Below, in pieces: positions 2,983-29,184 of a stretch of DNA of 29,184 nucleotides (the first letter of the stretch is position 1; every line of letters begins with the position of its first letter). The position numbers and the translations under genes are program-made. The stretch lies in the IMG/VR virus record IMGVR_UViG_3300031269_000068, positions 1 through 29,184 of that record. The stretch is one strand, 5' to 3'. The notes below the pieces were generated by a model. That model was not told where the DNA came from. It did no database searches and saw only the letters and a list, made by a program, of their open reading frames with translations. This DNA comes from a virus.

Positions 2983-3948
2983 TTATTTTTTAATAAACTT
3001 GTCAAAGGAATTGTCATCAACGAAAATACCTGAGGCTCCTCTGGGAAACACCATGTCTGTATAAACTTCAGTGTTACATGAAGAACATACTGTTTTTAGT
3101 TGTTTGATACCAAACCTCATTTTATCTACTGCCGCATTTAAGAATTGGAAAGATTCCATATTGTAATTTTGATAATCTCTTAATTTCTTTTTAATACCTT
3201 CACTAGATATGTTATTTCTGTCAGTAAGTGTAAATGGTATTACTTTCAAGAAGCTCATATTTGGTGGATTTTTCTCTTTATAATCTTCAATAATGTGAGT
3301 TGTAAAGCTCTTCTGAATTCCAATATTTGGTGGAGCTAATGTGAACACATCATCATTTCGTGTTTCAAAGTAAAATACTTTTTCACCTTGATCAAAATAA
3401 GGTTCTAAATCACCATCCATTTCATGAAAAACAAATGATTTTCTGCCTAATTCAATTTCATTAGTTTCACCACATGAACATTTAGCTTTTACAAAAAGTC
3501 CATTTCCTTTTTGGAAAGTTAACTCTCTAATTAAAAATATCAAATAGAATCTATCTCCATCTTTGATATCTAAATAAGATCCCATAGATCCATCAGCATA
3601 TTTAACTCTTACACATGATGCAATCATATCATTCATTTTTTCTACAATGTCGTAAAAGTTATCATCATCAACCATTGAATAAGATTGGATCTCTTTAACT
3701 TTAGCTGGTCTTACCATTACCTTTGTACCATTAGGGTAAAATGCTCCTAGTGGTAAATCTTTTGTATCAAAATGGAAGTATTCTAGTTCCGAAGCTCTTT
3801 CAGTACTATCTGATTTAATATTGTCTTTGAAAGCTTTTTCATTTTCAGACTTATTGTTCACATCAGTTTCTTCAATATAACTTCTAAGAAAGTCATCTTT
3901 CTTACTGTTACTCTTGTCTTGTTTATTATTTTTATTATCGTCGCCCAT
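2983..3948 (-). CDS. Baseplate hub protein, T4 gp26-like with zinc site
   Basis: This 321-aa protein resembles the T4-type baseplate family that includes gp26. Residues 1-55 are hydrophilic and probably disordered. The core starts at LPLGAFYPNGTKVMVRPAKVKE (65-86), the typical opening of this family, followed by FYLIFLIRELTF (134-145). Two cysteine pairs, CSC at 157-159 and CSSC at 288-291, could form one zinc site, as seen in enlarged gp26 homologs of large phages. At 321 aa it is longer than T4 gp26 (about 208 aa). It would act in the cytoplasm during hub assembly and end up in the virion. It leads a two-gene minus-strand unit; an AT-rich ACTATATATAATAAT motif lies 23-44 bp upstream of the start. 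Confidence 0.75.
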   Translation of the reverse strand: MGDDNKNNKQDKSNSKKDDFLRSYIEETDVNNKSENEKAFKDNIKSDSTERASELEYFHFDTKDLPLGAFYPNGTKVMVRPAKVKEIQSYSMVDDDNFYDIVEKMNDMIASCVRVKYADGSMGSYLDIKDGDRFYLIFLIRELTFQKGNGLFVKAKCSCGETNEIELGRKSFVFHEMDGDLEPYFDQGEKVFYFETRNDDVFTLAPPNIGIQKSFTTHIIEDYKEKNPPNMSFLKVIPFTLTDRNNISSEGIKKKLRDYQNYNMESFQFLNAAVDKMRFGIKQLKTVCSSCNTEVYTDMVFPRGASGIFVDDNSFDKFIKK

Positions 3949-4053
3949 AATTTTTAAGGATATTTTTTTAATATTATTATATATAGTATTTAACCCTCTT
4001 CCTCTATTAAAATAAATAAATAAACAAATATAATTCCATTTTATATAATTCCT

Positions 4054-4515
4054 ATGAAAGTACCTGAGAAATTATACGTAGTTAAAAGCGGAAGTAAATT
4101 ATCAAAACCATATAAAGCTCTTCATTTTGCTAAAATGAAAATGAGAAGTGAAAAGGATACCCTCATAACATACACATTGGAAAGTGAGGATACATTAAAA
4201 TCAATTAAAAGAGAGAAAAGATTATCACAAATACTAGATGGTAAAGAAAATAAAATAGATTCTAATGTAATTTCTTTATTTAAAAAACATTCTATTAGTT
4301 TAAATAAACTCCCTAAGATATTAGATAAAAAAGATTTGAAAAATTTAGTTGTTACAAATAAAAGAAAGTTATTTATCAATATCGACAATATAAAAGATTA
4401 TGAAACATTACTTAATTTCCATAACTTCCAAAAGTGTCCAATTGGAATGTCAGATAAAAAGGTTACAATGTTTCATATAGCTAAAGAGAATATTAAAAAT
4501 AAGAATAAGGATTAA
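4054..4515 (+). CDS. Uncharacterised basic protein, 153 aa
   Basis: This lysine-rich protein (MKVPEKLYVVKSGSKLSKPYKALHFAKMK...) has no motif I recognise. Charged helical stretches dominate and there is no signal peptide or membrane segment. The first 40 residues alternate short beta-like and basic segments, which would suit nucleic-acid or nucleoprotein binding, but that is only a guess. It is a single plus-strand gene between divergent baseplate genes and the convergent XRE/tail tube unit. It is preceded by TTTTATATAATT about 6 bp from the ATG. Confidence 0.7.
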   Translation: MKVPEKLYVVKSGSKLSKPYKALHFAKMKMRSEKDTLITYTLESEDTLKSIKREKRLSQILDGKENKIDSNVISLFKKHSISLNKLPKILDKKDLKNLVVTNKRKLFINIDNIKDYETLLNFHNFQKCPIGMSDKKVTMFHIAKENIKNKNKD

Positions 4516-4544
4516 AAAAACCCCATAGAACGTATCCTATGGGG
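4513..4544 (-). terminator. Intrinsic terminator of the tail tube/XRE unit
   Basis: CCCCATAG (4521-4528) pairs with CTATGGGG (4537-4544). Read on the minus strand the stem is followed by seven T. It lies 12 bp beyond the XRE stop codon and abuts the stop of the converging plus-strand gene. Confidence 0.8.
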
Positions 4545-4556
4545 AACTTATAATTA

Positions 4557-4856
4557 TTATTTAATATTATAGTATTCAAATTCTTTAATTGGTTCACAAT
4601 GGATAAGTTCTGTTTCCAAAGCTCGCTCCATTTTTATGATGCTTTTTAAGGTGAGATTATGCATACCCGAAAGCCATTTGGACACTTCTGAAGGAGATTT
4701 ACCCATTGCTTTGGCTAAGTCTCCATTGTTCCATCCTTTTAAAATAAGTTTATTCCTCACTTTTTCGGTAATGGCAAGGTTTTTTTCTACAAATTGGTCT
4801 ATTTCTGGGTCACCGTTCTGGGCTAACCAATCTGATATAATGCTGTTTTTTTTCAT
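4557..4856 (-). CDS. XRE-family HTH regulator, HigA-like
   Basis: This 99-aa protein has a helix-turn-helix of the Cro/C1 (HTH_3) type at about residues 40-83: LAKAMGKSPSEVSKWLSGMHNLTLKSIIKMERAL. The pre-domain, with NGDPEIDQFVEKNLAI then VRNKLILKGW, is the form common in chromosomal Bacteroidota regulators and in HigA-like antitoxins. No partner toxin gene is adjacent. It lies 18 nt after the tail tube gene on the same strand and before a terminator, so it is probably co-transcribed with late tail genes. That is an odd place for a repressor and suggests an acquired cargo gene. It would bind DNA as a dimer; the operator is not identifiable here. Confidence 0.85.
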   Translation of the reverse strand: MKKNSIISDWLAQNGDPEIDQFVEKNLAITEKVRNKLILKGWNNGDLAKAMGKSPSEVSKWLSGMHNLTLKSIIKMERALETELIHCEPIKEFEYYNIK

Positions 4857-5935: not shown

Positions 5936-6415
5936 CTAAACTTCTTTAGTCATATCAGCTGGTGAATCAGCTCCAAATTCTTCCATTTTATTTCTGAAAA
6001 AAGTATGATAATTTCCTTCATCTTCTGAAGTCCATCCTCTGTTGATTTCTTCCCATTGATCTTTAGTAAGGTCAGCTGGAGAATCAGCTTCGAATTCTTC
6101 TAATTTACCCATGAAATAGTCTCTATAATCTGGCTCATTACTTTCGTTTACATTCTCTTTTTGTTCCATACCCTTATCATTAGATTCATTTGTTTTTTCG
6201 AAATCACTAATAACACCTTTCACCCAATTAAGAATACTGATTTTAGATTCACCGATACCAATTCCCATAGTCCTAGAATTTTCATCTTCGATTTCATCTA
6301 TCTTTTCATCTATTTTAAGATTTAGTATGTGTAATATTGTTTCAGAATCGAGTTCAGATGAAACATTTTCATTTAATGATTCTAAAAAATTACCTATTTT
6401 TTTATGAATTTTCAT
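5936..6415 (-). CDS. Acidic repeat protein with leader-like N-terminus, C-terminus likely truncated
   Basis: This 159-aa acidic protein has an N-terminus (MKIHKKIGNFLESLNENV) that fits the leader pattern described for its neighbour. The C-terminal third holds two copies of a helical module: FMGKLEEFEADSPADLTKDQ (followed by WEEINRGW) and FFRNKMEEFGADSPADMTK. This DSPADLT-type module is common in phage and bacterial proteins of unknown function. The second copy ends abruptly at KEV-stop. In the -1 frame the DNA continues DLSMKDENPEEL and stops exactly at TAATG with the next gene, so a 1-nt deletion near 5937-5942 has probably shortened the protein by about 12 residues. An AT-rich promoter-like motif lies 23-43 bp upstream. 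Confidence 0.7.
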   Translation of the reverse strand: MKIHKKIGNFLESLNENVSSELDSETILHILNLKIDEKIDEIEDENSRTMGIGIGESKISILNWVKGVISDFEKTNESNDKGMEQKENVNESNEPDYRDYFMGKLEEFEADSPADLTKDQWEEINRGWTSEDEGNYHTFFRNKMEEFGADSPADMTKEV

Positions 6416-6437
6416 ATCGTTAATTATTTTTCTTAAA

Positions 6438-6458
6438 GTATATATTATATTATAAAGT
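6438..6458 (-). promoter_or_regulatory. Putative late promoter motif
   Basis: On the minus strand it reads CTTTATAATATAATATATAC, nearly identical to the sheath upstream block (TTTTATAATATAATATATAA). It lies 23-43 bp before the ATG at 6415. It is the best pairwise match supporting a shared late promoter element. Confidence 0.4.
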
Positions 6459-6514
6459 TAGATTTTAATTTTCGTTTTGGTAAATGGTGTAAAATATCTA
6501 TTTTAGATTAAAAA

Positions 6515-7231
6515 ATGAGACTACAAGATATATCTGAACATATCGAAAACATATTATTAGATGATTACCATATCACAAGAGATCAACTTCTCGATACTGA
6601 TATAGGTTCATTCATGGATGATTACTTTTTTCGTGAATTTACTTATAAGATAGAAAAGTGTATTGGTGTTGATTTAAGTGTTCTTTTTGATAGAATGGGA
6701 ATACTAATTGATAAGGATTTATTTAATTTTGATAGATTATGTCAAGTTATTCATATAATAAAAAATAGAACCGGGCTTTGCTTATATAGTACTAAGGTTA
6801 AAGGAATCTTTGAAGATAAAATTGAATTGATTTACACTAGTTTTTCACACAACTTACAAAGTAAATTTTATCAGAATGTGGGTGGGTTTTATTTTAAAAA
6901 TAAACAAATACAGAATGTGGGATTTGTCATCACTTCTGATATGGAGGAACAATACAACAGAAGAAAGAGGTTAAGAAAAAAATTACCACATAATAAAAAA
7001 ATTAAGTTTATTTCAAGTGAAAACTTATTTAAAAGTAATAACATACTTTTCATTAAAACAACATATGGTGAGTATTTCACATTAAATATGGATTCTGAAT
7101 CTAATGATGTTAATAATGTAATTCAACAAATCAATAAAAAAGAATTTTTAGAATTCTATCAACGAAGGGAAAGATGTGATGTTATACTAAAAAATAAAAA
7201 ACCTGAAAAAGTGGAAGTTTCTTTAACTTAA
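6515..7231 (+). CDS. Uncharacterised protein, 238 aa
   Basis: No family is recognised. The N-terminal 90 residues are acidic and helical (LQDISEHIENILLDDYHITRDQLLDTD...). The middle has beta-like segments (KVKGIFEDKIELIYTSF, VGGFYFKNKQIQNVGFVITSD), followed by a basic patch NRRKRLRKKLPHNKK near residues 149-163 and a charged C-terminus. No signal peptide or membrane helix is present. Its stop codon region overlaps that of the converging gene 7223-7726 by 9 nt, with no terminator between them, so the two transcripts can pair at their 3' ends. Confidence 0.75.
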   Translation: MRLQDISEHIENILLDDYHITRDQLLDTDIGSFMDDYFFREFTYKIEKCIGVDLSVLFDRMGILIDKDLFNFDRLCQVIHIIKNRTGLCLYSTKVKGIFEDKIELIYTSFSHNLQSKFYQNVGGFYFKNKQIQNVGFVITSDMEEQYNRRKRLRKKLPHNKKIKFISSENLFKSNNILFIKTTYGEYFTLNMDSESNDVNNVIQQINKKEFLEFYQRRERCDVILKNKKPEKVEVSLT

Positions 7232-7726
7232 CATTATAGTCATATCATGTGGAGATTCTCTATTACCACCAAAATAAGGATTTAGATAATAACCCCATAA
7301 TTTTAAATTACCATGTTTTATCTTTGTTGTATAAGTAGAATATGGATTTAATTTTTTAACAGTAAATACGAAATTATCATCTTTAACATCAATTGACATT
7401 TCAGCACTTTCGAATGGTTTTAAGTTACATATTTTTATATTCTCATCCCATTCCTTAACTCTTTCACCATTCCTATAAACATAAGCTAATATTTCCATTG
7501 ATTGATTTTCTTCCGACCACCTCCATCCAAACCTTGCTGAATTTTTATGGTGAAATCCAAATGACATACCAAATAATTTATTAATATCAAATTGATCGAT
7601 GCCATCTAAATTATATTCACAGTTATTATTAAAGAAAACATTATGTGATATTTTCTTTTTAAAAAGGAACAATCTGAATTTTCTATTATCAGATTTGTGG
7701 GTATTTTTACGTATTATATGAACCAT
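7223..7726 (-). CDS. Beta-rich protein with PYFGGN..PHD motif
   Basis: This 167-aa protein alternates short beta strands with conserved aromatic and glycine positions: GMSFGFHHKNSARFGWRW near residues 53-70, MEILAYVYRNGERVKEW, and a C-terminal WGYYLNPYFGGNRESPHDMTI. I recall proteins with the GWR...EILAYxYxNG...PYFGGNxxxPHD pattern in phages and Bacteroidota as uncharacterised, probably beta-sandwich, proteins. That fold often binds carbohydrate or forms virion decorations; no direct evidence favours either. An AAAATAATATATAATCT motif lies 28-46 bp upstream, as for other minus-strand late genes. The gene converges with 6515-7231. Confidence 0.65.
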   Translation of the reverse strand: MVHIIRKNTHKSDNRKFRLFLFKKKISHNVFFNNNCEYNLDGIDQFDINKLFGMSFGFHHKNSARFGWRWSEENQSMEILAYVYRNGERVKEWDENIKICNLKPFESAEMSIDVKDDNFVFTVKKLNPYSTYTTKIKHGNLKLWGYYLNPYFGGNRESPHDMTIMLS

Positions 7727-7893: not shown

Positions 7894-8904
7894 CTAAAGT
7901 TTATTAACATATAACCATTTTTTATTACCACAACCCCATACCCTATAAGCTCCTACATCTTCATACATTATATCTTTTTCAGATTTATTAGAATCATATC
8001 CCATTTTAACAAGAACCGACTTTCTATATTTATATCGGTGTTCCCTTTTCTTATTAATAACCCAATGGTAATTTAAGTGAACCTTACTTTCACTAATATC
8101 AAATCCTAATGTCTTATATAATCTACCATCTGAATAACTATTATCAGAGTATGATATGACTTTATTGGGTTTATAATTTCTTAAAAAATTCTTAAATAAT
8201 CTTGATGCTCCTCCAATAACATTTACCCCTTTTTCATTACAGAATCTTATAAGTTCATAATTGTTTTTTTCTTGGTCTTTACTTCCCATAAAAATTCTAA
8301 TATCACCAAAAGTCATCAGAGAAACTAATTCATCTTCATAAAATAATCCCATCTTTATTTTACTTTTTGAGTACCCCTGAATATGATTATTATTCAAAAA
8401 ATCTATTACCACTTGGTTATCCTTAACTTCTCTAACATCACACTCTTTTATATCTTTATTTAAGGAAGCGTGTTTTGTTCCATATTTTTTAATATTAGAC
8501 TCTTCCTTTTTTTAATAACTTTTGGATCGAGTCCTATACACTTATTACTACAATATTTATGCATTCTATCATTCTGCGTTCTCGGCGACCACATCGCTGG
8601 ACCTTTACTCTTATTCAACATTCTAAACTGAATAGCACTGATCGGCGGATCATCAAAGGTAACCCAATTTTGAATTCTTAAACTTAACTTTATTTTCACA
8701 CTGTGGGTTTTCACATAATAAGTAACTTTTTATTTTATTAACTGTATGATAAACTTTCTGTTTAAATGGAATATCTAAATTTTCACAAAAATTAATAATA
8801 TGATCATAGTCTTTATTATAATTTTTAATGATATATTTTTCCTTGGTCATTTTTCCAGACTTATTATTATTCTCAAATTCATATATAAATTCACTACTTA
8901 ACAT
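7894..8904 (-). pseudogene. Decayed homing-endonuclease-like gene
   Basis: Three fragments read in order on the minus strand. The first (8904-8653) is an N-terminal piece ending in CENPQCENKVKFKNSKLGY. The second has YCSNKCIGLDPKVIKK. The third (about 8506 to 7894) reads SNIKKYGTKHASLNKD, then DFLNNNHIQG, LVSLMTFG, ELIRFCNEKG, GGASRLFKNF, ISYSDNSYSDGRLYKTLGF. These blocks are typical of phage Vsr/EDxHD-type homing endonucleases: a cysteine recognition module with KYG repeats plus the C-terminal NHIQG...GGASxLF domain. The Vsr-like catalytic domain normally between them is missing. The frame is broken twice, by a 97-bp MnmG-derived insert (8562-8658) and by a 1-nt deletion in an A7 run (8507-8513). 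The part from ATG 8412 could still be made as a 172-aa protein. Confidence 0.75.
8562..8658 (-). other. 97-bp inserted fragment of a MnmG (GidA) gene
   Basis: On the minus strand it encodes FDDPPISAIQFRMLNKSK and on to GPAMWSPRTQNDRM. The IQFRMLNKSKGPAMWSPR block is the hallmark of the FAD-binding region of MnmG/GidA, the tRNA uridine-34 modification enzyme, in its Bacteroidota-like form. G+C is about 44% (43 of 97), well above its surroundings. It separates KLGY from HKYCSNKC of the disrupted protein, and its length (97, remainder 1 modulo 3) accounts for the frame break. Its edges share at most one base of homology. Confidence 0.75.
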
Positions 8905-9006: not shown

Positions 9007-12000
9007 TTATGCAAATCCACTAGATTCAATACCACCAGTCCTTGTGATTGTAATGTTATTAACAATTATTCCCATAGCCTTAACTGGTTCAAGATATGTA
9101 TCTAATACCCCAATTTGATTATCTATCAACTCATCAGTATTATTTTCTGAATCTATCTTGTTAAAGAAGTTGAATAAACCATTTTGGTTAACGTATTTTT
9201 CACAAATAGCATCTGCTCTTAACTTAATCTCAGCTCTAACTTCTGGAGTGTTAAACTTCCATTGGAAGTTGAGTAACATTGCTGCTAATTCTTCCTCGAT
9301 CTCGATAAGAACCTCTCTTACGTGAATAAATGATAGTGCTGATCTAACGAACGTTTGAGCTGTATTTTCAGTCTCTATTACAAATCCTCTATTTCTCTTA
9401 GAAACTATTGGATTTACTTTCATTTCATTTAGATTTTCAATATCTTCACCGTTAAATTCTTTCTCAAGACCAGCGATACCTGTTATCTGACCATTAGTTA
9501 CACCTGCTGAAACAGTCCAAGGTCTTATATTAGTTTGTGTTGTATTAAACTTTCTAAGGTATGTACTTGCAACGTATGCTGCTGGTGGGAAACTCAATGG
9601 TCTACCGTTATCATTCACTGTTAAGTAAGGTGCGAAATAACCAACTGTTGTAACACCCGTTCCCTCTGCTAATGAGTATAGGAAAGCTGGGTTACTTTCT
9701 GGGTCACCACCTTGTTTAATGAATTCTGTTTGTAGAACTCCTTCATCATCAACGAATGATGGTGAAGTTGAATTCTTAAATTGTTTCATACTTGGCATGT
9801 TAATGAAACCAAAACAATCTAATCTTTCTCCACAAATATCTACAAGTTGTTGTTTAGAATTTTCTGTTAAACCATTACCAAATGAATCGACTAAATATCT
9901 GAAATCAATCACATTTTTATCAGTAATAGCTTTAAACATATTTGATCCTTTTTCAACAATGTTTAAGATATCATCTTGTCTTTCTTCTGTACCATCTGGA
10001 ATAGATGCTTCTCTAACTTTGAATCCATTCATTCTGAATCCTTTATAAACTGTTATATAGTCATCTATTCTTGTAAATCTTGTTGTTTGAAGATCACCAT
10101 TAAAATCATATTTCTTAATAGACGCATCTGTTGTTATTTCAACAAGATCAGTATTAGCTGGGTAAACTTTCTTAGAAAGAATTCTTGTCATTCTTTTAGC
10201 TACCTCATCAGCTTCTAATTGACTCTCATCTACATCAGCTAGTAAGAAATCACCTATCTTAACTTCTGTAAATCTTTGTCCATTTACAAGTATCTTATTT
10301 GGTACTTGAACGTATCCCGCAGGAACTTCAATCTCAACTGTTTGTTGGAAATTAGTCTTTTGTGATACTACTGTTATTTCAATATTATTGTTTATATCAA
10401 TAGGACTTGTTGATTGTAGTAATTGGTCTTGGAATTCAACACTCAATATACCACTGTTATCAAAGTACATCTTCAAATAAGCTAAGTCATTTGCGTCCCA
10501 TACTCTATCAACATTACTAATTGATTCTTTAATATCATTACTTGATCCACTTACGTTTTCAGTAACTCTAAATGCGTATCTATCAGTAGGAGATGTATAA
10601 ACACCACCTGTTACTAGACCATTTATAAAGTTTGAATTATTTGTAATTGTGAATACATCTGAATTAAACTCTGAATCTGGTATAATAACTCTATCATTTG
10701 TATTAAATCCGATAGGGTTTATTCCAGTTGTATCTTCAAATACGATATAATCTTGTCCATTAAAGTCTACAAAGTCAACATCATATTCTGTTGCTATCAT
10801 ATTCTTATAGAAAAAGTCTTTCGTATTAATAATACCATCTCTATACTTATCATAAAAATCTGAATATTTAGCTACGATACCTTGAGTTGTTGTTGGTAAT
10901 TGATTAGTTGTAATTAACGAATCTGTACCTAATATGAACTCGTCATCCTTTACATACACTAATAAGTTATATGTACCTGATGTATTACCTCCAAGGTCTG
11001 TCATATCAGTTTCAACAAGTCCTGTTACAAGAGTAAACTCTTTATTTACAGAAGTTAGAGTTTCAATATCCGTAACGCTCATAGTATCTAAAGAAGCTTT
11101 AATATTACCATCTATGATTAGTGTCGCTTCACCTTTATTTGGACCACCTAATAAATTAAGTAAGTTATTAAATAATTTAAATATTCTATATATCTCATAT
11201 TCATTAGGGTCTGCTGCTTGAGCAGTACCTAAAAATTCCCATGTTATTTCACCACCATTAAAGGTTACAGTAAAGTCAACACTTTCTTGAAGTTCAACAA
11301 AACCAGAAGAATCAACACTAACATTTGTAAGTTTTGTTCTTTCATCTACAATAGAATTAGTAAGACCGATTTTTATAACCGAAAAATCTACATATCCTAA
11401 AACAATATCTGTTGTAGCAACTGTTGGGTTATCATCATTTGTCATGTTGTTGATCATCTTAATAGTTCCTGTGTTATCCACAACTACTGTTGATTTATAT
11501 GGAGTTGCATCTTCAATATTAGCTCCATCATCAGCGTCAACATAATCTGATGGGTCAATTGAGAATGTTGCCGTAGTTTCCAATTCAAGTACTTGACCAC
11601 CTATAACAGCGTAAGCATCAGGACCAACTTGATATTCAAGTGTGATATCTGTTGATAAGGTTGGAACACCACTTGTTGCACCAAAACCGGTTGTTAAACC
11701 AGAGTTTTCTGTAACATCATATACATGATTTTCAGCATAAAATGCTGACCTATCAAGTGATGGGTTTGAAGGTGTACCACCTTTATATAAACTACCATAA
11801 GAAATTACATTCCCTGGAGTATCTAAAAGTTTTGTTTCAAATGTAACATTATCTGTTACAACATCTTTATAAGATAAGAAATTAACTTCCTCTGGCATAT
11901 CTCTTTGGGTTGTTGCGATCAAGTTGTTACCAATAAGGTCAATTAAACCTGTTGGGTAATCTGTATCTTGAACAGCATCAATATCATATCCACAAAATAA

Positions 12001-12864
12001 TCCATTCTTATCTGTATCTCTATTTATAACATTTTCTATAAATATATCTCTACCATTTGCATCTCTAAAATAAGGTATTAAACTAAGTCCTTGGTAATAA
12101 GATAACACACTTGATGCTGGATCATTTATGAAATTTAAAACTTCCGATTTAATTAAACCTGATGAGTTAAAGTAATTACCCCATCTAGAATCAACAGCTA
12201 ATTGTTGATAGTCTGTCCAGTCACCTGATAAAACTACAACATCAACCATATAATCTGAAACATAATCTGTTGGATATACAAATAAAGGAATATCATCTGG
12301 ACTTCCGTACCAAGAAATCATATCTACATCAAATCCCGTTTGAGTTGATTTAAATACGAATACTGAAATAGGTTTCTCACCCATATTAGTAAAGTTTAAT
12401 ATTCTTTCATCAGCATTTGGATCTTCATTTGCTAATGTATTGAATGAATCTGTATCTTTTTTCCAAAAACCTGATCTATCAAAGAACCTTGAATATGGTC
12501 CATCTTTTTTAACATAATTGAAATTCTTCGTTGAAGTTGAAAAACTTTGATATTCTAATGTATCTAAGTTATCATCTGTTAAAAGTAAATTTATTGCTAC
12601 TACTGGGTTTGATTCTAGTAGTTTAGATATAGTTCTATGGAAGAAAGATCCTTTTCTCTCTAACCTTCTATCAATTGGACCAAATATAGATTCTAAATCT
12701 GTTTGGTTATTTATCACAACTGGTGTATTGAAAGGTCCTTTCTTAGCAAAACCAAGAACCGCATTTTGGATTCCCTCAACAATAGGTGTTTCGATAACAC
12801 TGTCACCGAATTCTCTAATGTAGATACCTGGTCTTCCAAAGCTTCCTATTTGTACTTCTGGCAT
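9007..12864 (-). CDS. Tail sheath protein, T4 gp18-like, enlarged
   Basis: This 1285-aa protein is about twice the length of T4 gp18 (659 aa). The N-terminus has the sheath opening, SFGRPGIYIREFGDSVIETPIVEGIQ then VLGFAKKGPFNTPVVINN. The C-terminal ~330 residues carry the conserved sheath core: YLVDSFGNGLTENSKQQLVDI, FGFINMPSMKQFKNS, PPAAYVASTYLRKFN, RPWTVSAGVTNGQITGI, and FQWKFNTPEVRAEI. These two parts form the handshake-linked contractile ring in known tails. The middle (about residues 200-900) is Asp/Asn/Thr-rich, beta-type sequence absent from T4 and probably forms surface domains. The gene is a monocistronic minus-strand unit with its own AT-rich promoter motif and terminator. Antisense frames inside it are not genes. 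Confidence 0.93.
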   Translation of the reverse strand: MPEVQIGSFGRPGIYIREFGDSVIETPIVEGIQNAVLGFAKKGPFNTPVVINNQTDLESIFGPIDRRLERKGSFFHRTISKLLESNPVVAINLLLTDDNLDTLEYQSFSTSTKNFNYVKKDGPYSRFFDRSGFWKKDTDSFNTLANEDPNADERILNFTNMGEKPISVFVFKSTQTGFDVDMISWYGSPDDIPLFVYPTDYVSDYMVDVVVLSGDWTDYQQLAVDSRWGNYFNSSGLIKSEVLNFINDPASSVLSYYQGLSLIPYFRDANGRDIFIENVINRDTDKNGLFCGYDIDAVQDTDYPTGLIDLIGNNLIATTQRDMPEEVNFLSYKDVVTDNVTFETKLLDTPGNVISYGSLYKGGTPSNPSLDRSAFYAENHVYDVTENSGLTTGFGATSGVPTLSTDITLEYQVGPDAYAVIGGQVLELETTATFSIDPSDYVDADDGANIEDATPYKSTVVVDNTGTIKMINNMTNDDNPTVATTDIVLGYVDFSVIKIGLTNSIVDERTKLTNVSVDSSGFVELQESVDFTVTFNGGEITWEFLGTAQAADPNEYEIYRIFKLFNNLLNLLGGPNKGEATLIIDGNIKASLDTMSVTDIETLTSVNKEFTLVTGLVETDMTDLGGNTSGTYNLLVYVKDDEFILGTDSLITTNQLPTTTQGIVAKYSDFYDKYRDGIINTKDFFYKNMIATEYDVDFVDFNGQDYIVFEDTTGINPIGFNTNDRVIIPDSEFNSDVFTITNNSNFINGLVTGGVYTSPTDRYAFRVTENVSGSSNDIKESISNVDRVWDANDLAYLKMYFDNSGILSVEFQDQLLQSTSPIDINNNIEITVVSQKTNFQQTVEIEVPAGYVQVPNKILVNGQRFTEVKIGDFLLADVDESQLEADEVAKRMTRILSKKVYPANTDLVEITTDASIKKYDFNGDLQTTRFTRIDDYITVYKGFRMNGFKVREASIPDGTEERQDDILNIVEKGSNMFKAITDKNVIDFRYLVDSFGNGLTENSKQQLVDICGERLDCFGFINMPSMKQFKNSTSPSFVDDEGVLQTEFIKQGGDPESNPAFLYSLAEGTGVTTVGYFAPYLTVNDNGRPLSFPPAAYVASTYLRKFNTTQTNIRPWTVSAGVTNGQITGIAGLEKEFNGEDIENLNEMKVNPIVSKRNRGFVIETENTAQTFVRSALSFIHVREVLIEIEEELAAMLLNFQWKFNTPEVRAEIKLRADAICEKYVNQNGLFNFFNKIDSENNTDELIDNQIGVLDTYLEPVKAMGIIVNNITITRTGGIESSGFA

Positions 12865-14532: not shown

Positions 14533-16074
14533 ATGTCAAAAACAAATCAAACTTTAAAAACTGATAAAAAAGTAAGAACTCGTTTTGCACCTTCTCCTAC
14601 TGGAAATTTACATTTAGGGGGACTGAGGACGGCTCTAATCTGTTACTTATTCGCAAAACAAAACAACGGTGATTTTCTTCTAAGGATTGAAGACACTGAC
14701 CAAAAACGTTTTGTAGAAGGAGCAGAAGATTACATCCAAAGATCTATGGAATGGGTTGGTATAAGTGTTGATGAATCTCCTTGGAATCCAAATGAAGATA
14801 TTGGTCTTTATAGACAATCAGAAAGATCTGAAGCAGGTATCTATGATAAATATATCAAACAACTAATTGACTCGGGAGATGCATATTACGCATTTGATAC
14901 ACCCGAAGAATTGGACGCTTATCGAGCTGAGTTGAAAGAAAACGGTGTTAAGAACTTTGCCTACAACCGAAAAAGTAGAATGAATATGAAAAATTCATTC
15001 ACACTATCAGAAGATGAAGTAAACGAATTGTTAGAAAATGGGACTCCATATGTTATTCGATTTAACTGTCCAAAGGATGAAATCATTGAAGTTGATGATA
15101 TGATTCGTGGAAGAGTTAAACTTCAATCAAATGTTATGGATGATAAAGTTCTTTTGAAAAAGAATGGGATTCCTACATACCATATGGCTAACATTGTTGA
15201 TGATTATGAAATGGGTATCACTCATGTAATTAGAGGTGAAGAATGGTTACCTAGTGTAAGCCTACACTGTATGTTATATGACGCTCTTGGACTTGATCGA
15301 CCAACATTTGCTCACCTACCATTAATTTTAAACCCAAATGGTAAAGGTAAACTTTCCAAACGAAGTGGTATTACTAACGGTTTCTCTGTATTTCCTTTGA
15401 CATGTGATGTTGAAGATAAGAAAGGTAACCTCGTGAATATGTTAGGTTATGACGAACAAGGTTATGAGTCTGACGCATTTGTTAACTTCCTTGCTTTACT
15501 TGGCTGGACACCAACTAACGATAAAGAAATCCTTTCAATGGATGAAATGATTGAAGATTTTGATATGAATAGAGTATCAAAAGCAGGATGTCGATTTGAT
15601 ATTAAGAAATTAAATTGGTTTAACTCACAATATGTGAATAAACTAAGTATCTCTGATGTATTTACATCTGAAGAAGTTTCAGAATGGGGTACTGAAAAGT
15701 TAGAAATGGTTCTAGATTTAGCTAAAGAAAGAGCTGTTTTTAGAAAAGATCTCTCAACTATTATTGATATCTTCTTAAAACCAATTGAAAATTATACTGA
15801 TGTTTCTAAGTTTAATGATGAGTTTAGAAATGTATTCTCAAACTTTGATTTTCACCTTGAAAACGAAGGGTTAAACTTTAAAGAAGGTCAACCAATTAAA
15901 GATCTCATTTACAAATTAACTGTAAAAGAGAAAGGTTATCGATTTGGAAAGGTAATGCCGGGTCTTAGACAAGCTCTAACTGGTGGAGTATCAGGTCCAG
16001 ATCTTATGACTACAATGGTTATTCTTGGAAAGGATGAAAGTATCAACCGAATTAAGAACTCACTATTGTCATAG
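14533..16074 (+). CDS. gltX: Glutamyl-tRNA synthetase, Bacteroidota type
   Basis: This 513-aa class I aminoacyl-tRNA synthetase attaches glutamate to tRNA-Glu in the cytoplasm, using ATP. The HIGH-type motif is PSPTGNLHLGG (20-30) and the KMSKS-type motif is GKLSKR (272-277). RIEDTDQKR (51-59) and HVIRGEEWLPS (231-241) are also typical of GluRS. Right after KLSKR, residues 281-312 (GFSVFPL..., then GYESDAFVNFLALLGW) follow the insertion pattern known from Bacteroidota GluRS. Length and motifs indicate an intact, active enzyme. Synthetase genes are rare in phages; likely uses are to sustain charging of host or phage tRNA-Glu or to resist host tRNA-directed defence. It stands alone between an inverted-repeat leader and a strong terminator. 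Confidence 0.95.
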   Translation: MSKTNQTLKTDKKVRTRFAPSPTGNLHLGGLRTALICYLFAKQNNGDFLLRIEDTDQKRFVEGAEDYIQRSMEWVGISVDESPWNPNEDIGLYRQSERSEAGIYDKYIKQLIDSGDAYYAFDTPEELDAYRAELKENGVKNFAYNRKSRMNMKNSFTLSEDEVNELLENGTPYVIRFNCPKDEIIEVDDMIRGRVKLQSNVMDDKVLLKKNGIPTYHMANIVDDYEMGITHVIRGEEWLPSVSLHCMLYDALGLDRPTFAHLPLILNPNGKGKLSKRSGITNGFSVFPLTCDVEDKKGNLVNMLGYDEQGYESDAFVNFLALLGWTPTNDKEILSMDEMIEDFDMNRVSKAGCRFDIKKLNWFNSQYVNKLSISDVFTSEEVSEWGTEKLEMVLDLAKERAVFRKDLSTIIDIFLKPIENYTDVSKFNDEFRNVFSNFDFHLENEGLNFKEGQPIKDLIYKLTVKEKGYRFGKVMPGLRQALTGGVSGPDLMTTMVILGKDESINRIKNSLLS

Positions 16075-21142: not shown

Positions 21143-21847
21143 TTAAACCTTACACTTGTAAGCTATTAGGGGTTTAACCCCTTTAAGTTTTTCGATATCT
21201 TTACAAGAGCTTATTTGTAAATCAGTTAATAATCGACCAGATCTTTTTCGGTTTTTACTTCTATCGCAATCTTTATCATATTCGATCACTTCTATATCTA
21301 TATCATTATCCTTTAAAAAATCTAATATTTCTTTTTCGGATTCATCTCCAATATCAGATAGAAAAGAAAAAACAAACCCATCAACATCGGATACTTTAGA
21401 TTCTAACCTTGAAGCACTACCAACAGTATTCCCAAAGTAATCTTTTAACTCTACACCTTGTATTTCTGATTTCTTTATATAAACATCACCATAACATATA
21501 CCTATTCTAATTTTAACTTCATTATCACCAACTTTTATAGGATCTTCATTCAATGATTTCTGTATATTAATTGCCATTTTAATAGCATCAAATAGGGAAT
21601 CTTCTTCCTCATATGAACACATATATGAATCTCCTATTGTTTTAACAATAAGACCATTGTGATCCTTTATTAATTTACCCATTAATTTTTCTAATTTGTC
21701 TAACGCTTCGAACATTTCTTCTTCATTATCTGACCATAACATAGATGATCCTTTTATATCATTAAATAATATGGTTGATTTTTTAGTAGGAAGTGATGTT
21801 ACATTTCCCCTTTTAGACTCGTTTATATATGTTGTAAATCTTTTCAT
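21143..21847 (-). CDS. Class III nucleotidyl cyclase with capsid-leader-like N-terminus
   Basis: This 234-aa protein makes a 3',5'-cyclic nucleotide. The catalytic domain runs from STILFNDIKGSSMLW (metal Asp30) through HNGLIVKTIGDSYMCSY (Lys69, metal Asp73) and IRIGICYGDVY to LKDYFGNTVGSASRLES. Asp136 and Lys69 are the pair that selects adenine in class III adenylyl cyclases, and Arg147 stabilises the transition state. The usual Asn of GNTVN is Gly143 here. One domain alone implies a homodimer. Before the domain is MKRFTTYINESKRG, which closely resembles the T4 internal-protein leader (MKTYQEFIAE). The protein could thus be packaged in the head, cut after Glu10 and injected. TTAATATATAA lies just upstream. 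Substrate (ATP or other NTP) is not proven. Confidence 0.85.
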   Translation of the reverse strand: MKRFTTYINESKRGNVTSLPTKKSTILFNDIKGSSMLWSDNEEEMFEALDKLEKLMGKLIKDHNGLIVKTIGDSYMCSYEEEDSLFDAIKMAINIQKSLNEDPIKVGDNEVKIRIGICYGDVYIKKSEIQGVELKDYFGNTVGSASRLESKVSDVDGFVFSFLSDIGDESEKEILDFLKDNDIDIEVIEYDKDCDRSKNRKRSGRLLTDLQISSCKDIEKLKGVKPLIAYKCKV

Positions 21848-21931
21848 AAATTATATATTAAGTATTCGTTCTAAATAATTATTTTAAACTTTTTTTCTAA
21901 AACTCACTACTACTAAGTAAAATAAACAATT

Positions 21932-22642
21932 ATGAAAATAACATTTTTTACAGGTGCTGGTATATCACAAGAAAGTGGTATATCAACATTCAGAGACAAA
22001 GACGATGGGCTTTGGGAAAACATTGATTTAGAAAAAGTTGCTACTACTAAAGGTTGGAATACTAACCGTGAGCAATTACTTGAATTTTACAATCAAAGAC
22101 GAAGAGAGTTAGAAAAATCAGAACCCAATGATGCACACAAAATTATAAAATCATTGGAAGATAATCATGATATATCTATTATAACACAAAATGTTGATGA
22201 TCTACATGAAAGAGCTGGCTCTTCAAATATATTACATTTACATGGTGAATTAACTAAATCTAGAGGATACTTTTACGAACATAAAACTTCTCCATTAGAT
22301 CCAATTTATGATATTGGGTATGAAGATATAAAAGAGGGTGACTTTTGTGAAGAATCAGGTTCTCAATTAAGACCACATGTAGTTTGGTTTGGTGAAATGC
22401 CATATAATGTAGATGAATCATATAAAGAATTATCAACCACAGATATATTTGTGATTGTGGGTACATCTTTAAATATAACATACACCTTAGATATGTTAGA
22501 ATATGTTGCGGATAGAGATATTCCAATTTATTATATTGATCCAAGTCCAAGTGAATACCTAGATGGTATAACCGAAGTTAACTATATTAAAGAAAAAGCA
22601 ACCAATGGATTGAAAAAGTTAGTTGTGGATTTAGGTTTGTAA
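21932..22642 (+). CDS. NAD-dependent protein deacylase (sirtuin), CobB/SIRT5 type
   Basis: This 236-aa sirtuin uses NAD+ to remove acyl groups from lysines. Motifs are FTGAGISQESGISTFRD (6-22), ITQNVDDLHERAGS (84-97), catalytic His104 in HLHGE, RPHVVWFGEMP (147-157), and VGTSLN further on. Tyr53 and Arg56 in FYNQRRREL form the YxxR pair that marks class III enzymes (CobB, SIRT5) with desuccinylase activity. The small zinc module is reduced: one Cys (139) remains where CobB has four, as in many Bacteroidota sirtuins as I recall them. All active-site residues are present, so it should be active. It may reprogram host protein acylation or NAD metabolism during infection. It is divergent from the cyclase gene. 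Confidence 0.92.
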   Translation: MKITFFTGAGISQESGISTFRDKDDGLWENIDLEKVATTKGWNTNREQLLEFYNQRRRELEKSEPNDAHKIIKSLEDNHDISIITQNVDDLHERAGSSNILHLHGELTKSRGYFYEHKTSPLDPIYDIGYEDIKEGDFCEESGSQLRPHVVWFGEMPYNVDESYKELSTTDIFVIVGTSLNITYTLDMLEYVADRDIPIYYIDPSPSEYLDGITEVNYIKEKATNGLKKLVVDLGL

Positions 22643-24126: not shown

Positions 24127-25281
24127 ATGGATAAAACTAAAAATAAGCCAAAATCAGACAACTCAAAGTTAGATTCTTTGAGCCTTGAACATATGAGAGT
24201 TATTTGTACTGATAGGTTTAGTAAAGTTATAAATGATATTAAAAACCACTATCAATCAGATAGAAGAAATAAAGTTAGATACATTTGTTATGTTATTGAT
24301 GGTATAGTTAATAAAGATCTAAGGTCTAAATCACAAGACACATCTCGCGGTTTTAATGGTAGAGTGGTGACCTTTGAATATAGAATGGAAAAAATAATAA
24401 AATCTTTGTTTTTAGAGAATGATATTCATAGTTTAAGGGATTTATGTAGTATAACAAAAAACATAGGTTATAATTATATATCTATTTCAAAAGATGGTGA
24501 GTATATAACTTATATTCCATATAATAAGAAATATAAACTTGATTGGATTTCAGGTAATTCATCACTTAAGAATAAGAAAAAACAAAAAGTTAAAATTGGT
24601 AAATTTGTAAAGTCTATATTTAGCAATTTAAACCTTAAACCTTTATCGAATACTGAAATTGAAAAATTTGTCTCTATGTTCAAATCTTATTCCACTATTG
24701 GTGGTGAATTTAAAGAAGTTAATGGTGAAGAAATCAAGTTAACATTTGAACATCAAAAGTTAGTTAGATCTTCTACTTTAGGTAGATCGTGTATGAATGG
24801 TAAAATAAGTTCTATGTTTTATCTATATTCTAAAAACCCAGAGAAAATTAGTATGTTGACTTTTAAAAATGGAAACCTTATTAAAGGTAGAGCTCTTCTT
24901 TGGAAATTAGATAATGGTGGAACATACATGGATAGAATTTATTACTCAGATGAACATATTAAACACAAATTTGAAGAGTATGGTATTCGTAAAGGATATT
25001 CATTATATAGAGATAGGGGATATGAACCTATAAAGGTTACATTAAAAAATTATACCTTTGATAAATATCCATATTTGGATACTGTTCAATTTTTTAGTAT
25101 ATTATCAGGAGTGTTTACAGATGATTTGCAAATACTAGAGGAAGAGAAAATACCAAAAAAGACTTTTAGTAAGTTATATTCGAAAGTATTTAATCGTAAA
25201 GAATATAAAAGACTAAAAAGTATTGAAAAATCATACATAAAAAAAAGTCGCTCGACAGGTGGTTTTGTAATAGATATGTAA
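24127..25281 (+). CDS. Uncharacterised phage protein, paralog of 211-1251
   Basis: This 384-aa basic protein shares an ordered set of blocks with the 346-aa protein at 211-1251: KIGKFVKSIF, GGEFKEVNGEEIKL, STLGRSCMNGK, FYLYSKNPEKISML, IKGRALLWKL, TYMDRIYYSD, and a C-terminal YPYLDT. Spacing between blocks is similar, so the whole central and C-terminal domain is homologous. The N-terminal ~150 residues and the extreme lysine/arginine-rich C-terminus (KLYSKVFNRKEYKRLKSIEKSYIKKSRS) differ. The conserved Arg-Ser-Cys and Gly-Arg-Ala-Leu-x-Trp positions look like an active or binding site, but no function is known to me. Confidence 0.85.
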   Translation: MDKTKNKPKSDNSKLDSLSLEHMRVICTDRFSKVINDIKNHYQSDRRNKVRYICYVIDGIVNKDLRSKSQDTSRGFNGRVVTFEYRMEKIIKSLFLENDIHSLRDLCSITKNIGYNYISISKDGEYITYIPYNKKYKLDWISGNSSLKNKKKQKVKIGKFVKSIFSNLNLKPLSNTEIEKFVSMFKSYSTIGGEFKEVNGEEIKLTFEHQKLVRSSTLGRSCMNGKISSMFYLYSKNPEKISMLTFKNGNLIKGRALLWKLDNGGTYMDRIYYSDEHIKHKFEEYGIRKGYSLYRDRGYEPIKVTLKNYTFDKYPYLDTVQFFSILSGVFTDDLQILEEEKIPKKTFSKLYSKVFNRKEYKRLKSIEKSYIKKSRSTGGFVIDM

Positions 25282-25328: not shown

Positions 25329-26420
25329 ATGGAGGAATTAAAAAAATTAGAAACTTATACTGATCAATCGAAAGAGTTCTTAATTAAGTACTTGAATAAC
25401 CCATCCCCGTCTGGATTCGAAAGAGAAGGACAAAAGATGTGGAGAGATTATATAAAACAATATGTCGATGATATAATTGTTGATAATTACGGAACGGTTG
25501 TTGGAGTTATTAACCCTGACGCTGAACGTAAAGTTGTTATCGAAGCTCACGCAGATGAAATTGGGTGGACTGTTAAATATATCTCAAAAGCAGGTTTAGT
25601 TTATGTAGAAAAACTAGGTGGTTCAGATGTACAATTAGCACCAGGAAGTCGAGTGAATATTCATACTCGTGAGGGTGACGTTGAGGGTGTATTTGGTTTT
25701 CCAGCAGTTCATGTTAGGAATAAAGATCATAAACCAGCAATTAATAACTTATTCATAGATGTTGGTGTAATAACAGCTAAGAAAGTTAAAGAATTAGGAA
25801 TTGAAGTGGGTGACCCAATCACTTTCGCTACAGGTTCGAATATTATGAATGGTCAAAGAGTAGTAGGTAGAGGTTTAGATAACCGTATCGGTGGGTTTAT
25901 GATTGCACAAGTCGCTAGACTCTTACAAGAGAATGATGTAGAATTACCATTCGGATTGTATATTGTAAATGCTGTTCAAGAGGAAGTTGGTAAGAATGGT
26001 GCTAAAATGATAGCCGAGAATATCAAACCCGACATTGCAATTGTTACAGATGTAACACACGATACATCAACACCAGGAATCAATGCTACAAGTAAGGGAG
26101 ACTTTAAGATCTCAAGAGGTCCAGTACTTACATCAGCTCCCCCAATTCAAAAGAAACTTCTAGAATTTATTACTTCTATTGCAGAAGATAATAAGATTAA
26201 GTTCCAAAAGAAAACAGCATCAAAAGTAACTGGTACAGATGCCGATTCTTTCGCATACGCTAACGGTGGAATTCCAACAGCACTTATCTCACTACCAATG
26301 AGATATATGCACACAGCGGTTGAAACCGTATCAACATTTGATGTTGAGAAATGTGTCAAATTATTCTATAAGACTCTTGTAGAATTAGATCCTAATATGA
26401 AATTCAATACGTTGGATTAA
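25329..26420 (+). CDS. M42-family metallo-aminopeptidase
   Basis: This 363-aa dinuclear zinc aminopeptidase is of the family that includes glutamyl aminopeptidase PepA of Lactococcus, FrvX and TET peptidases. Metal and catalytic residues are visible: His74 and Asp76 in IEAHADEIGW, Asp184 in GRGLDNRIGG, Glu218-Glu219 in VQEEVGKNGA, Asp241 in VTDVTHD, and His328 in RYMHTAVET. Length is normal for the family, so it is probably an active cytoplasmic enzyme forming a dodecameric cage that trims short peptides. In a phage it could recycle host protein for amino acids. The sequence and composition suggest capture from a host. It has an A-rich start region (AATGGAGGA lies within the first codons) and a strong terminator. 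Confidence 0.93.
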   Translation: MEELKKLETYTDQSKEFLIKYLNNPSPSGFEREGQKMWRDYIKQYVDDIIVDNYGTVVGVINPDAERKVVIEAHADEIGWTVKYISKAGLVYVEKLGGSDVQLAPGSRVNIHTREGDVEGVFGFPAVHVRNKDHKPAINNLFIDVGVITAKKVKELGIEVGDPITFATGSNIMNGQRVVGRGLDNRIGGFMIAQVARLLQENDVELPFGLYIVNAVQEEVGKNGAKMIAENIKPDIAIVTDVTHDTSTPGINATSKGDFKISRGPVLTSAPPIQKKLLEFITSIAEDNKIKFQKKTASKVTGTDADSFAYANGGIPTALISLPMRYMHTAVETVSTFDVEKCVKLFYKTLVELDPNMKFNTLD

Positions 26421-28196: not shown

Positions 28197-29184
28197 ATGA
28201 AGTTTGATTTTAATGATATTCTAATAGAACCAAAAGATCTAAGTGATATTGATAGTCGAAAAGAAATAACGTGTCAATATGAGGGTAGGTTACCTATATT
28301 TGCTGCTCCAATGGATACAGTAATAGATGAAAAAAATGTATCTGATTTTACTGATAGAGGGATAAACGTTTGTTTACCAAGAGGAATTAAATCACAAGAA
28401 ATTTCTCAACCTGAGTTCAGTTTGATGTTTGAATCCTATGGGTTATCTGATGTGGAAAAATTCGTAGAAGAAGAAGTTGATGGTGATAAATTTTCTGATT
28501 ATGTATTAATAGATATTGCTAACGGTCACATGAAAAAATTGTATGATCTAACTAAAAACTTTAAGGAAAAGTATCCTGAGAAAACTTTAATGGTTGGTAA
28601 TGTCGCTAATCCAAAAACATATGAATTATTATCTTTAGCGGGAGCTGATTATATTCGAGTTGGTATTGGTAATGGTGCAGGATGTTTAACATCTAAAAAT
28701 ACTGGAGTTGGTTATCCTATGGCTTCCTTGATTAAGGAATGTTATGAGATAAAATTAACAATGGCTAAAAGTGCTAAGATAGTTGCTGATGGTGGGTTTA
28801 AAGAATATGCTGATATAATTAAAGCTTTATTATTAGGAGCTGATTATGTTATGTTAGGAAGTGTTTTAAATAAATCAATTGAATCATCAGGAGATAACTA
28901 TTTCCATAGAATCAAAATATCTAAAAAATTCGCTAGTTTTTTATTCAGTAAATCATTCAAAGTTACCAAGAAGTTCAGAGGTATGAGTACTAAAGAAGTT
29001 CAACGTAAATGGGGTAAGTCTAAGTTAACCACTTCTGAGGGTGTTGTTAGATATAGACCTGTTGAATATTATCTACATTCATGGGTCGAAAATTTCGAAG
29101 ATTATTTAAAGTCCTCAATGTCATATACTGGGTGTTATAACTTAGATGAATTTATCGGATGTTCTCGATATAATATGATTACCA
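28197..29184 (+). CDS. guaC: GMP reductase (IMPDH/GMPR family), 3' end outside window
   Basis: The open frame from ATG 28197 runs to the window edge (329 codons and continuing). MKFDFNDILIEP is the usual family opening, and IFAAPMDTVID forms part of the barrel. VGNVANPKTYELLSLAGADYIRVGIG is the substrate-binding region, with NGAGCLTSKNTGVGYP holding the catalytic Cys, IVADGGF the phosphate loop, FRGMSTKEVQ then SEGVVRYRPV the flap, and SSMSYTGCYN the end. TGVGYP after the Cys and the absence of CBS domains favour GMP reductase (GMP + NADPH to IMP + NH3) over IMP dehydrogenase. A phage enzyme could shift purine pools toward adenine nucleotides, in keeping with the AT-rich genome. The call of GMPR over IMPDH is probable, not certain. 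Confidence 0.8.
   Translation, partial: MKFDFNDILIEPKDLSDIDSRKEITCQYEGRLPIFAAPMDTVIDEKNVSDFTDRGINVCLPRGIKSQEISQPEFSLMFESYGLSDVEKFVEEEVDGDKFSDYVLIDIANGHMKKLYDLTKNFKEKYPEKTLMVGNVANPKTYELLSLAGADYIRVGIGNGAGCLTSKNTGVGYPMASLIKECYEIKLTMAKSAKIVADGGFKEYADIIKALLLGADYVMLGSVLNKSIESSGDNYFHRIKISKKFASFLFSKSFKVTKKFRGMSTKEVQRKWGKSKLTTSEGVVRYRPVEYYLHSWVENFEDYLKSSMSYTGCYNLDEFIGCSRYNMIT

Follow-up and report, generated by a model that had tools for sequence, protein, structure and literature searches.

A virus record of 29,184 bases (the window, an incomplete genome) carries a sirtuin gene, and the locus raises three questions: whether the protein retains the chemistry of an NAD+-dependent deacylase, whether it belongs to the phage or was recently taken from a host, and what it would do in infection. 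We found that the window carries an intact sirtuin of the SIRT5/CobB class, zinc-poor and of the Bacteroidota type. The gene and its diagnostic codons are the following.

21932-22642, plus strand: sirtuin gene, 236 amino acids from ATG to stop; Bacteroidota-type, zinc-poor, SIRT5/CobB-like, predicted NAD-dependent protein deacylase.
21953-21967, plus strand: codons of GAGIS, residues 8-12, the NAD+-binding motif; G8, G10 and S12 invariant and A9 nearly so in 39 rows.
22088-22099, plus strand: codons of Tyr53-x-x-Arg56, the acidic-acyl pocket pair, judged from residue counts in the virus clade and in bacteria.
22184-22210, plus strand: codons of TQNVDDLHE, residues 85-93, invariant in 39 rows.
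22241-22243, plus strand: codon of His104, the catalytic His, invariant in 39 rows.
22346-22348, plus strand: codon of Cys139, by residue inspection the sole Cys of the zinc module.

The original prediction of a complete SIRT5/CobB-type sirtuin was borne out. The reading frame was intact, and the protein matched PF02146 (SIR2) far above chance (Pfam; E 2.7e-42, 145.2 bits against a cut-off of 24), as it did phrog_2162 'Sir2' (PHROG; E 1.6e-42). E. coli CobB (1s5p) was matched in a PDB sequence search (E 7.8e-42). An AlphaFold2 model was obtained with pLDDT 91.9 and pTM 0.90; its top VIA-align matches were CobB entries 6rxj and 6rxm (Z 28.3, 225 residues, rmsd 2.0), and SIRT5 entries among the matches listed scored Z 23.3-26.9. 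With the CobB equivalog model NF040867 (NCBIfam) the protein reached 159.3 bits, under the 320-bit cut-off. GC3 of the gene was 0.160, which is 1.7 s.d. under the mean of 0.198 (s.d. 0.022) for window ORFs of at least 400 bases. The NAD-binding and catalytic residues attributed to the protein beforehand were all present (GAGIS, TQNVDDLHE, His104, and VGTS at 176-179), and both the Tyr53/Arg56 pair and the single zinc-site Cys had been called correctly.

The phylogeny once proposed as a check for grouping with host sirtuins was run, and it placed the protein in a virus-only clade nested among Bacteroidota sirtuins. Bacterial rows were drawn from at least 592 candidate stretches, the best 80 of at least 582 relatives being retained; Bacteroidota made up most of these best 80 loci, the remainder being five from Marinobacter and single loci of other groups. 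In the main tree of 158 rows, from which the partial sequences L050 and L076 and identical sequences had been removed, the window's sirtuin fell in a virus-only set of 28 rows (SH-aLRT 95). This set is nested in a larger one of 43 rows, again virus-only (90), and the latter was enclosed by a 139-row Bacteroidota-type set (96), among whose Bacteroidota rows other phage sirtuins were scattered. Nine sampled rows of the T5/V5/KVP40 type formed a separate clade (SH-aLRT 99) that includes the long-branch L171, and six phage sirtuins with four or five Cys grouped with E. coli CobB (SH-aLRT 94). Long branches in this tree were L077, L180, L171, L179, L079, L052, and L058, of which L171 and L079 are possibly misjoined. 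In a reduced tree of 46 hand-picked rows, whose omissions included L055 and the L056-L062 group, the window's virus set (22 of the 28 rows) was supported at UFBoot/SH-aLRT 100/96, and the set of Mahaphage-type sirtuins was separate (100/99). Recent capture from a host was ruled out by the virus-only clade and by identity, the nearest virus relative being at 59% and the best bacterial matches (best 80 of at least 582) at 44-51%.

A dN/dS near 1, expected of a very recent unselected acquisition, was looked for among the window's relatives, and purifying selection was found instead. Using 37 of the 43 rows and 35 pairs with at least 70% identity and at least 180 codons, pairs that are not independent of each other, NG86 dN/dS was 0.03-0.25 in 32 of the 35. 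The other three were L020/L022 (0.77; 98.8% identical, with almost no synonymous change), L032/L033 (dS 0), and L042/L016 (dS undefined). These values describe the relatives, the window's sirtuin itself having no sufficiently close one. The tree and these ratios indicate that the window's sirtuin belongs to an established phage lineage.

In SIRT5 the residues of the acidic-acyl pocket are Ala86, Tyr102, and Arg105; in CobB they are Tyr92 and Arg95. Across the window's 28-row virus clade, His104, Gln86, Asn87, and Asp89 were each found in 28/28 rows, and Tyr53 and Arg56 each in 26/28, both being absent from the same two rows (L055 and L072), which nevertheless have NAD+ genes. The nine T5/V5/KVP40-type sirtuins sampled had Tyr in 9/9, Arg in 7/9, and Gln86 in 0/9. 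By these counts, deacylase chemistry is retained more strictly in the window's clade than in the better-known T5/V5/KVP40 phage clade. The Tyr/Arg pair, which all 80 bacterial rows also have (best 80 of at least 582 relatives), shows a predicted capacity for acidic acyl groups and says nothing of the substrate. The zinc module held 0-2 Cys in 28/28 rows of the virus clade; since it did so too in 80/80 bacterial rows (best 80 of at least 582), the low Cys count is common to phage and bacterial members. A reduced zinc site is therefore a trait of the Bacteroidota-type family as a whole and no erosion in the phage.

Phage sirtuins of this specificity had been called unusual, and this part of the original prediction did not stand. 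By tblastn at 1e-5, sirtuin matches were found in 973 of 50,697 phage records (~1.9%, a count that takes in redundant isolates and some host DNA), 72 of which cover at least 80% of the query, and most of the T5/V5/KVP40-type sample counted above has the pocket pair. Searching IMG/VR for close relatives gave 79 loci, many near-identical. One "phage" record, L167 (ON470612.1, H10), carries E. coli cobB with its chromosomal neighbours at 3878-4717 and is host DNA at this place; H9 scores equal to H10, and both are within the 973. Passages of PMC5107563 discussed in 2016 a KVP40 Sir2/CobB without zinc ligands, with a homology model of a relative, and profiled transcripts of the Sir2 gene; viral sirtuins are surveyed in PMC9503650. 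Because of these precedents and the 973 matching records, phage sirtuins are not unusual. Within the available text of the open-licence literature searched there was no biochemical test of any phage sirtuin, the nearest being the transcripts and homology model of PMC5107563, nor was an NAD+ island built around a sirtuin described.

That the sirtuin is on a phage was confirmed by a tail gene in the window.

9007-12864, minus strand: tail sheath gene, 50.8% identical over its whole length to sheaths of LR745206 and LR756502.

LR745206 (634,780 bases) and LR756502 (642,428 bases) both contain sirtuins and putatively correspond to the Mahaphage genomes of 634 and 642 kb in PMC7162821, where, in the parts available, Bacteroidetes hosts are predicted for the largest Mahaphage members. 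The sheath would thus place the window's phage close to huge Mahaphage genomes. The sirtuins of Mahaphage-type records, with which the window groups by sheath, form a sister set with other neighbours. In six records the sheath matched over its full length, and their sirtuins fell in this sister set, apart from the window's. Forcing the window into the nine-row Mahaphage-type set was disfavoured and not rejected (p-AU 0.106). Vertical inheritance of the sirtuin together with the sheath is therefore disfavoured, and exchange of sirtuins among phages seems likely. Among 21 sheath-relative records, mostly fragments, no sirtuin was found (0/21). At the Mahaphage-type loci L023, L024, L026, L039, L044, L164, and L165 a very large protein is encoded 0.1-0.7 kb upstream of the sirtuin on the opposite strand (7/7), and an M16 peptidase, a D12 methyltransferase, and an HD-like protein each occur in 6/7. 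Another IMG/VR contig matches window positions 108-21177 at 99.991%; it stops 755 bases short of the sirtuin, so the gene itself is spanned by one assembly.

Other features of the window are the following.

21143-21847, minus strand: class III nucleotide cyclase gene (PF00211 E 9e-21; PADLOC PycC E 3.8e-8); no link to the sirtuin was seen.
21848-21931, no strand: 84-bp gap from which the cyclase and sirtuin genes diverge, a putative promoter region.
14533-16074, plus strand: glutamate-tRNA ligase, above the NCBIfam cut-off.
25329-26420, plus strand: M42 aminopeptidase.
28197-29183, plus strand: GMP reductase/IMPDH-like gene, truncated by the window end.

At 1e-5 a relative of the cyclase was found in only 1 of 50,697 phage records, LR745206 (34.6%), and a Pycsar-like, defence-type cyclase on a huge phage merits separate study. 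An ORF at 1357-2118 (plus strand) has a weak match to cyclic-nucleotide phosphodiesterases (PF00233, E 0.00086, under the cut-off) and might counter the cyclase. With this cyclase adjoining it, and with the Sir2 domain in common, the sirtuin could be an NADase or signalling enzyme akin to the defence Sir2 proteins ThsA and DSR2, serving superinfection exclusion. However, PADLOC defence models gave for the sirtuin only PDC-S65 (E 0.004), none falling below E 0.001, and the protein has the standalone 236-residue architecture of a deacylase with the complete deacylase residue set. We give this explanation very little credence, and a defence-type NADase role is unlikely.

Conserved neighbours for the window's own sirtuin were sought at 79 viral loci (1e-4) and rejected, there being few ORF matches, one of them close: the immediate neighbours did not recur beside the sirtuins of these loci. 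Matching ORFs were 211-1251 and 24127-25281 (L023), 4557-4856 (L004 and L012), and 7894-8412 (L063 and L064), together with the glutamate-tRNA ligase (L068 and L055); of these, 24127-25281 alone is close to the window's sirtuin (1.5 kb). The ORFs 211-1251 and 24127-25281 (both plus strand) are paralogues of each other without assigned function (~33% identity), and the Mahaphage-type contig L023 encodes relatives of each. Family profiles found no Nampt, Namat, NMNAT, or Macro in the 29-kb window fragment.

The picture was different around related sirtuins. We compared 58 non-redundant loci, the window included, as 23 clade loci (many of them truncated) against 34 others. With queries taken from clade loci or nearby phages, which biases the comparison towards the clade, 12 of 23 clade loci had a Nampt-like gene at most 10 kb from the sirtuin, versus 2 of 34 others; among loci with at least 8 kb upstream the counts were 12 of 17 versus 2 of 28. 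The 11 clade loci lacking Nampt within 10 kb include several short ones. Over the same distance and the same loci (23 versus 34), the counts were 10 versus 1 for NMNAT, 8 versus 1 for NADAR, 8 versus 1 for Macro, 13 versus 1 for PRPS, 12 versus 1 for Thg1, 6 versus 0 for HAD_SAK, and 14 versus 0 for the phosphoesterase. Recurrent neighbours in the 58 loci, named by Pfam of one representative each, were Nampt, NADAR, Macro, HAD_SAK_2, dCMP deaminase, PRPP synthetase, Thg1, calcineurin-like phosphoesterase, Nudix, DUF3127, and unknowns, and an NMNAT-Nudix protein was found farther upstream. In six loci NMNAT, Nampt, NADAR, Macro, and PRPS occurred together, all co-directional with the sirtuin; three of the six (L010, L016, and L028) add HAD_SAK and Thg1, co-directional too. 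The L010 NADAR gene (6216-6710), the L019 Macro gene (6940-7395), and their kin sit between Nampt and the sirtuin. The L019 Macro protein resembles DarG (E 6.5e-14) and the L010 NADAR protein a PADLOC candidate; such genes could undo ADP-ribosylation by host DarT-type toxins.

Some of these neighbours invite another explanation, RNA repair, in which the sirtuin removes 2'-phosphates from healed RNA ends by a KptA-like NAD+ reaction. This role was proposed in passages of PMC9503650 for proteobacterial-phage sirtuins adjoining RNA ligase, 2H, Nudix, and HAD genes, and the sister loci do hold HAD_SAK_2 ('Swiss Army Knife RNA repair'; 6/23), Thg1 (12/23), and the calcineurin-like phosphoesterase (14/23). 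However, the window's sirtuin lies outside the T5/V5/KVP40 clade (SH-aLRT 99), and Gln86, lost in the rows of that clade (0/9), is present throughout the window's (28/28). RNA repair would moreover have no need for an acyl pocket pair, and no RNA ligase, 2H, or KptA was found among the 20 window ORFs scanned with Pfam. We consider it quite improbable for the window's protein.

The association with NAD+ genes was also seen at the level of whole records. Family profiles were counted in 47 records (25 clade, 19 other sirtuin, 2 sirtuin-less sheath relatives, and the window), which are not independent trials because they are partly near-copies and fragments. Nampt or Namat occurred in 18/25 clade records versus 3/19 other sirtuin records, 0/2 sirtuin-less sheath relatives, and 0/1 for the window; NMNAT in 16/25 versus 5/19; and Macro in 14/25 (two under the Pfam cut-off) versus 4/19. 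Of nine Mahaphage-type records tested, only two (LR745206 and LR756502) encode Nampt, and there 200-220 kb separate it from the sirtuin. As a control through another marker, sheath relatives of an island phage were taken (best 80 of 192), 17 of them with a contig of at least 30 kb, the record of L028 excluded. Sirtuin was found in 0/17 of these, a comparison with little power, and Nampt in 1/17, so near the contig start (first 1.3 kb) that a sirtuin linked to it would have been lost. The fragments counted are in part redundant, so that much of the clustering could come from descent within a single phage group.

The Nampt genes of the clade are, by their identities, distant homologues. Those of L005 and L055 are 58% identical to each other and 26-31% to Nampt of the seven other loci compared. 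L005 Nampt is 27-31% identical to these, yet its sirtuin is 51-63% identical to theirs; the L055 sirtuin is 44-52% identical to the sirtuins of the seven loci. The clade phages behind L012 and L045 encode enzymes with GSFTYQYNTRD and GSYTYQYNTRD, which fit the Namat signature GSX-phi-X-phi-X-phi-TRD given in the available text of PMC12774641, making them candidate Namats. Each of these genes adjoins a short PRPP-synthetase-like gene, as Adps would predict. Gene pairs of this kind on two large clade phages are the following.

L217 13215-15813, minus strand: Adps-like/Namat-like gene pair, NARP1 type, with the Namat helix motif.
L219 3996-6429, plus strand: Adps-like/Namat-like gene pair, NARP1 type, with the Namat helix motif.

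With distant Nampts and Namat-type/Adps-like pairs both found, one and the same sirtuin clade occurs with NARP1-type genes and with two kinds of Nampt. The new finding here is this association between the window's sirtuin clade and enzymes that regenerate NAD+. It can be read as a sign that NAD+ regeneration was selected together with the sirtuin, with the caveats of phage relatedness and of the NAD+ genes known from several jumbo phages (passages of PMC7824862). The link to NAD+ metabolism that had been suggested for the gene thus gains plausibility from its sister phages.

These genes also bear on the explanation of the sirtuin as plain metabolic cargo: a deacylase derived from a host, whose main task would be to activate AMP-forming acyl-CoA synthetases or enzymes of central carbon metabolism, raising ATP and precursors with no counter-defence or NAD+-cycle role. 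Family and pocket are as in 80/80 bacterial rows (best 80 of at least 582), activation of acetyl-CoA synthetase is an idea raised in passages of PMC5107563, and the window has the glutamate-tRNA ligase, M42 peptidase, and GMP reductase-like genes. Metabolic cargo would not, however, predict the clade's NAD+ and ADP-ribose enzymes, distant Nampt versions included, and we regard it as doubtful.

Sirtuin deacylation spends one NAD+ per acyl group and yields nicotinamide and O-acyl-ADP-ribose. Nicotinamide re-enters the NAD+ pool via Nampt and PRPP, or via Namat and ADP-ribose pyrophosphate. O-acyl-ADP-ribose is named as product in the available parts of PMC9503650, with Macro domains acting on it. 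The neighbour genes of the sister phages therefore match the two products of the sirtuin, Macro acting on the one and Nampt or Namat recycling the other. A related supply is described in passages of PMC13232231, in which the gene of a phage RyR-domain protein is inserted in a NARP1 operon and the protein supplies ADP-ribose to the operon.

The best joint explanation, to which we assign a probability of about 0.6, is a zinc-poor sirtuin of a phage lineage, likely a deacylase, that more weakly would feed phage NAD+ recycling. The protein is likely to act as an NAD+-dependent lysine deacylase, moving the acyl group to ADP-ribose through His104, with Tyr53/Arg56 likely admitting acidic as well as small acyl groups, as the sirtuins of Bacteroidota hosts probably do. 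As a phage-owned copy under phage control it would likely deacylate host (or phage) proteins in infection. With less weight, nicotinamide and O-acyl-ADP-ribose may feed NAD+ regeneration by the phage, through Nampt/NMNAT with PRPP synthetase or through NARP1, and Macro/NADAR enzymes may assist this route. The phage might thus spend NAD+ on deacylation and still maintain its supply against drainage by host NADase defences. A stronger form is tentative: in a group of large Bacteroidota phages the sirtuin would be the NAD+-spending side of an NAD+ cycle that the phages replenish themselves, with the other genes elsewhere in the genome of the window's phage. If true, the sirtuin would remove acyl groups from proteins, Macro/NADAR enzymes would dispose of the ADP-ribose products, and an adjacent Nampt/PRPP-synthetase/NMNAT set (or NARP1) would rebuild NAD+, making phage deacylation resist NAD+-depleting defences; replacement of Nampt by distant versions beside a retained sirtuin would then signal selection on the pair. 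A clade with full deacylase chemistry, many of whose members lie amid genes that rebuild NAD+ and process ADP-ribose, makes testable a rewriting of the host acylome paid from phage NAD+.

Among known systems, the NARP1 and Nampt/NMNAT routes are like the present case in that phages of the window's clade encode Nampt and NMNAT or Adps-like and Namat-type genes; unlike it, neither pathway is in the 29-kb window, and the available text of PMC12774641 makes no mention of sirtuins. The Sir2/CobB of KVP40-like Vibrio phages is likewise phage-borne and has an FYNQRR motif in common with the window's protein, and the combination in these phages of a sirtuin without zinc ligands and NAD+ salvage genes is a precedent (passages of PMC5107563). 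The KVP40-type sirtuin differs in falling in a separate clade with Gln86 replaced, and KVP40 has no annotated NAD+ gene within 5 kb of its sirtuin, where many neighbours are hypothetical. E. coli CobB and SIRT5 share with the window's protein the fold, the His, the TQN, and the Tyr/Arg pair, whereas identity to CobB is ~37%, the zinc module has one Cys against four, and the score lies below the CobB equivalog cut-off. The zinc-poor sirtuins of Bacteroidota such as Winogradskyella and Marinilabilia share the catalytic set, the Tyr/Arg pair, and 0-2 Cys at 44-51% identity (best 80 of at least 582); unlike them, the window's protein sits in a virus-only clade nested among them.
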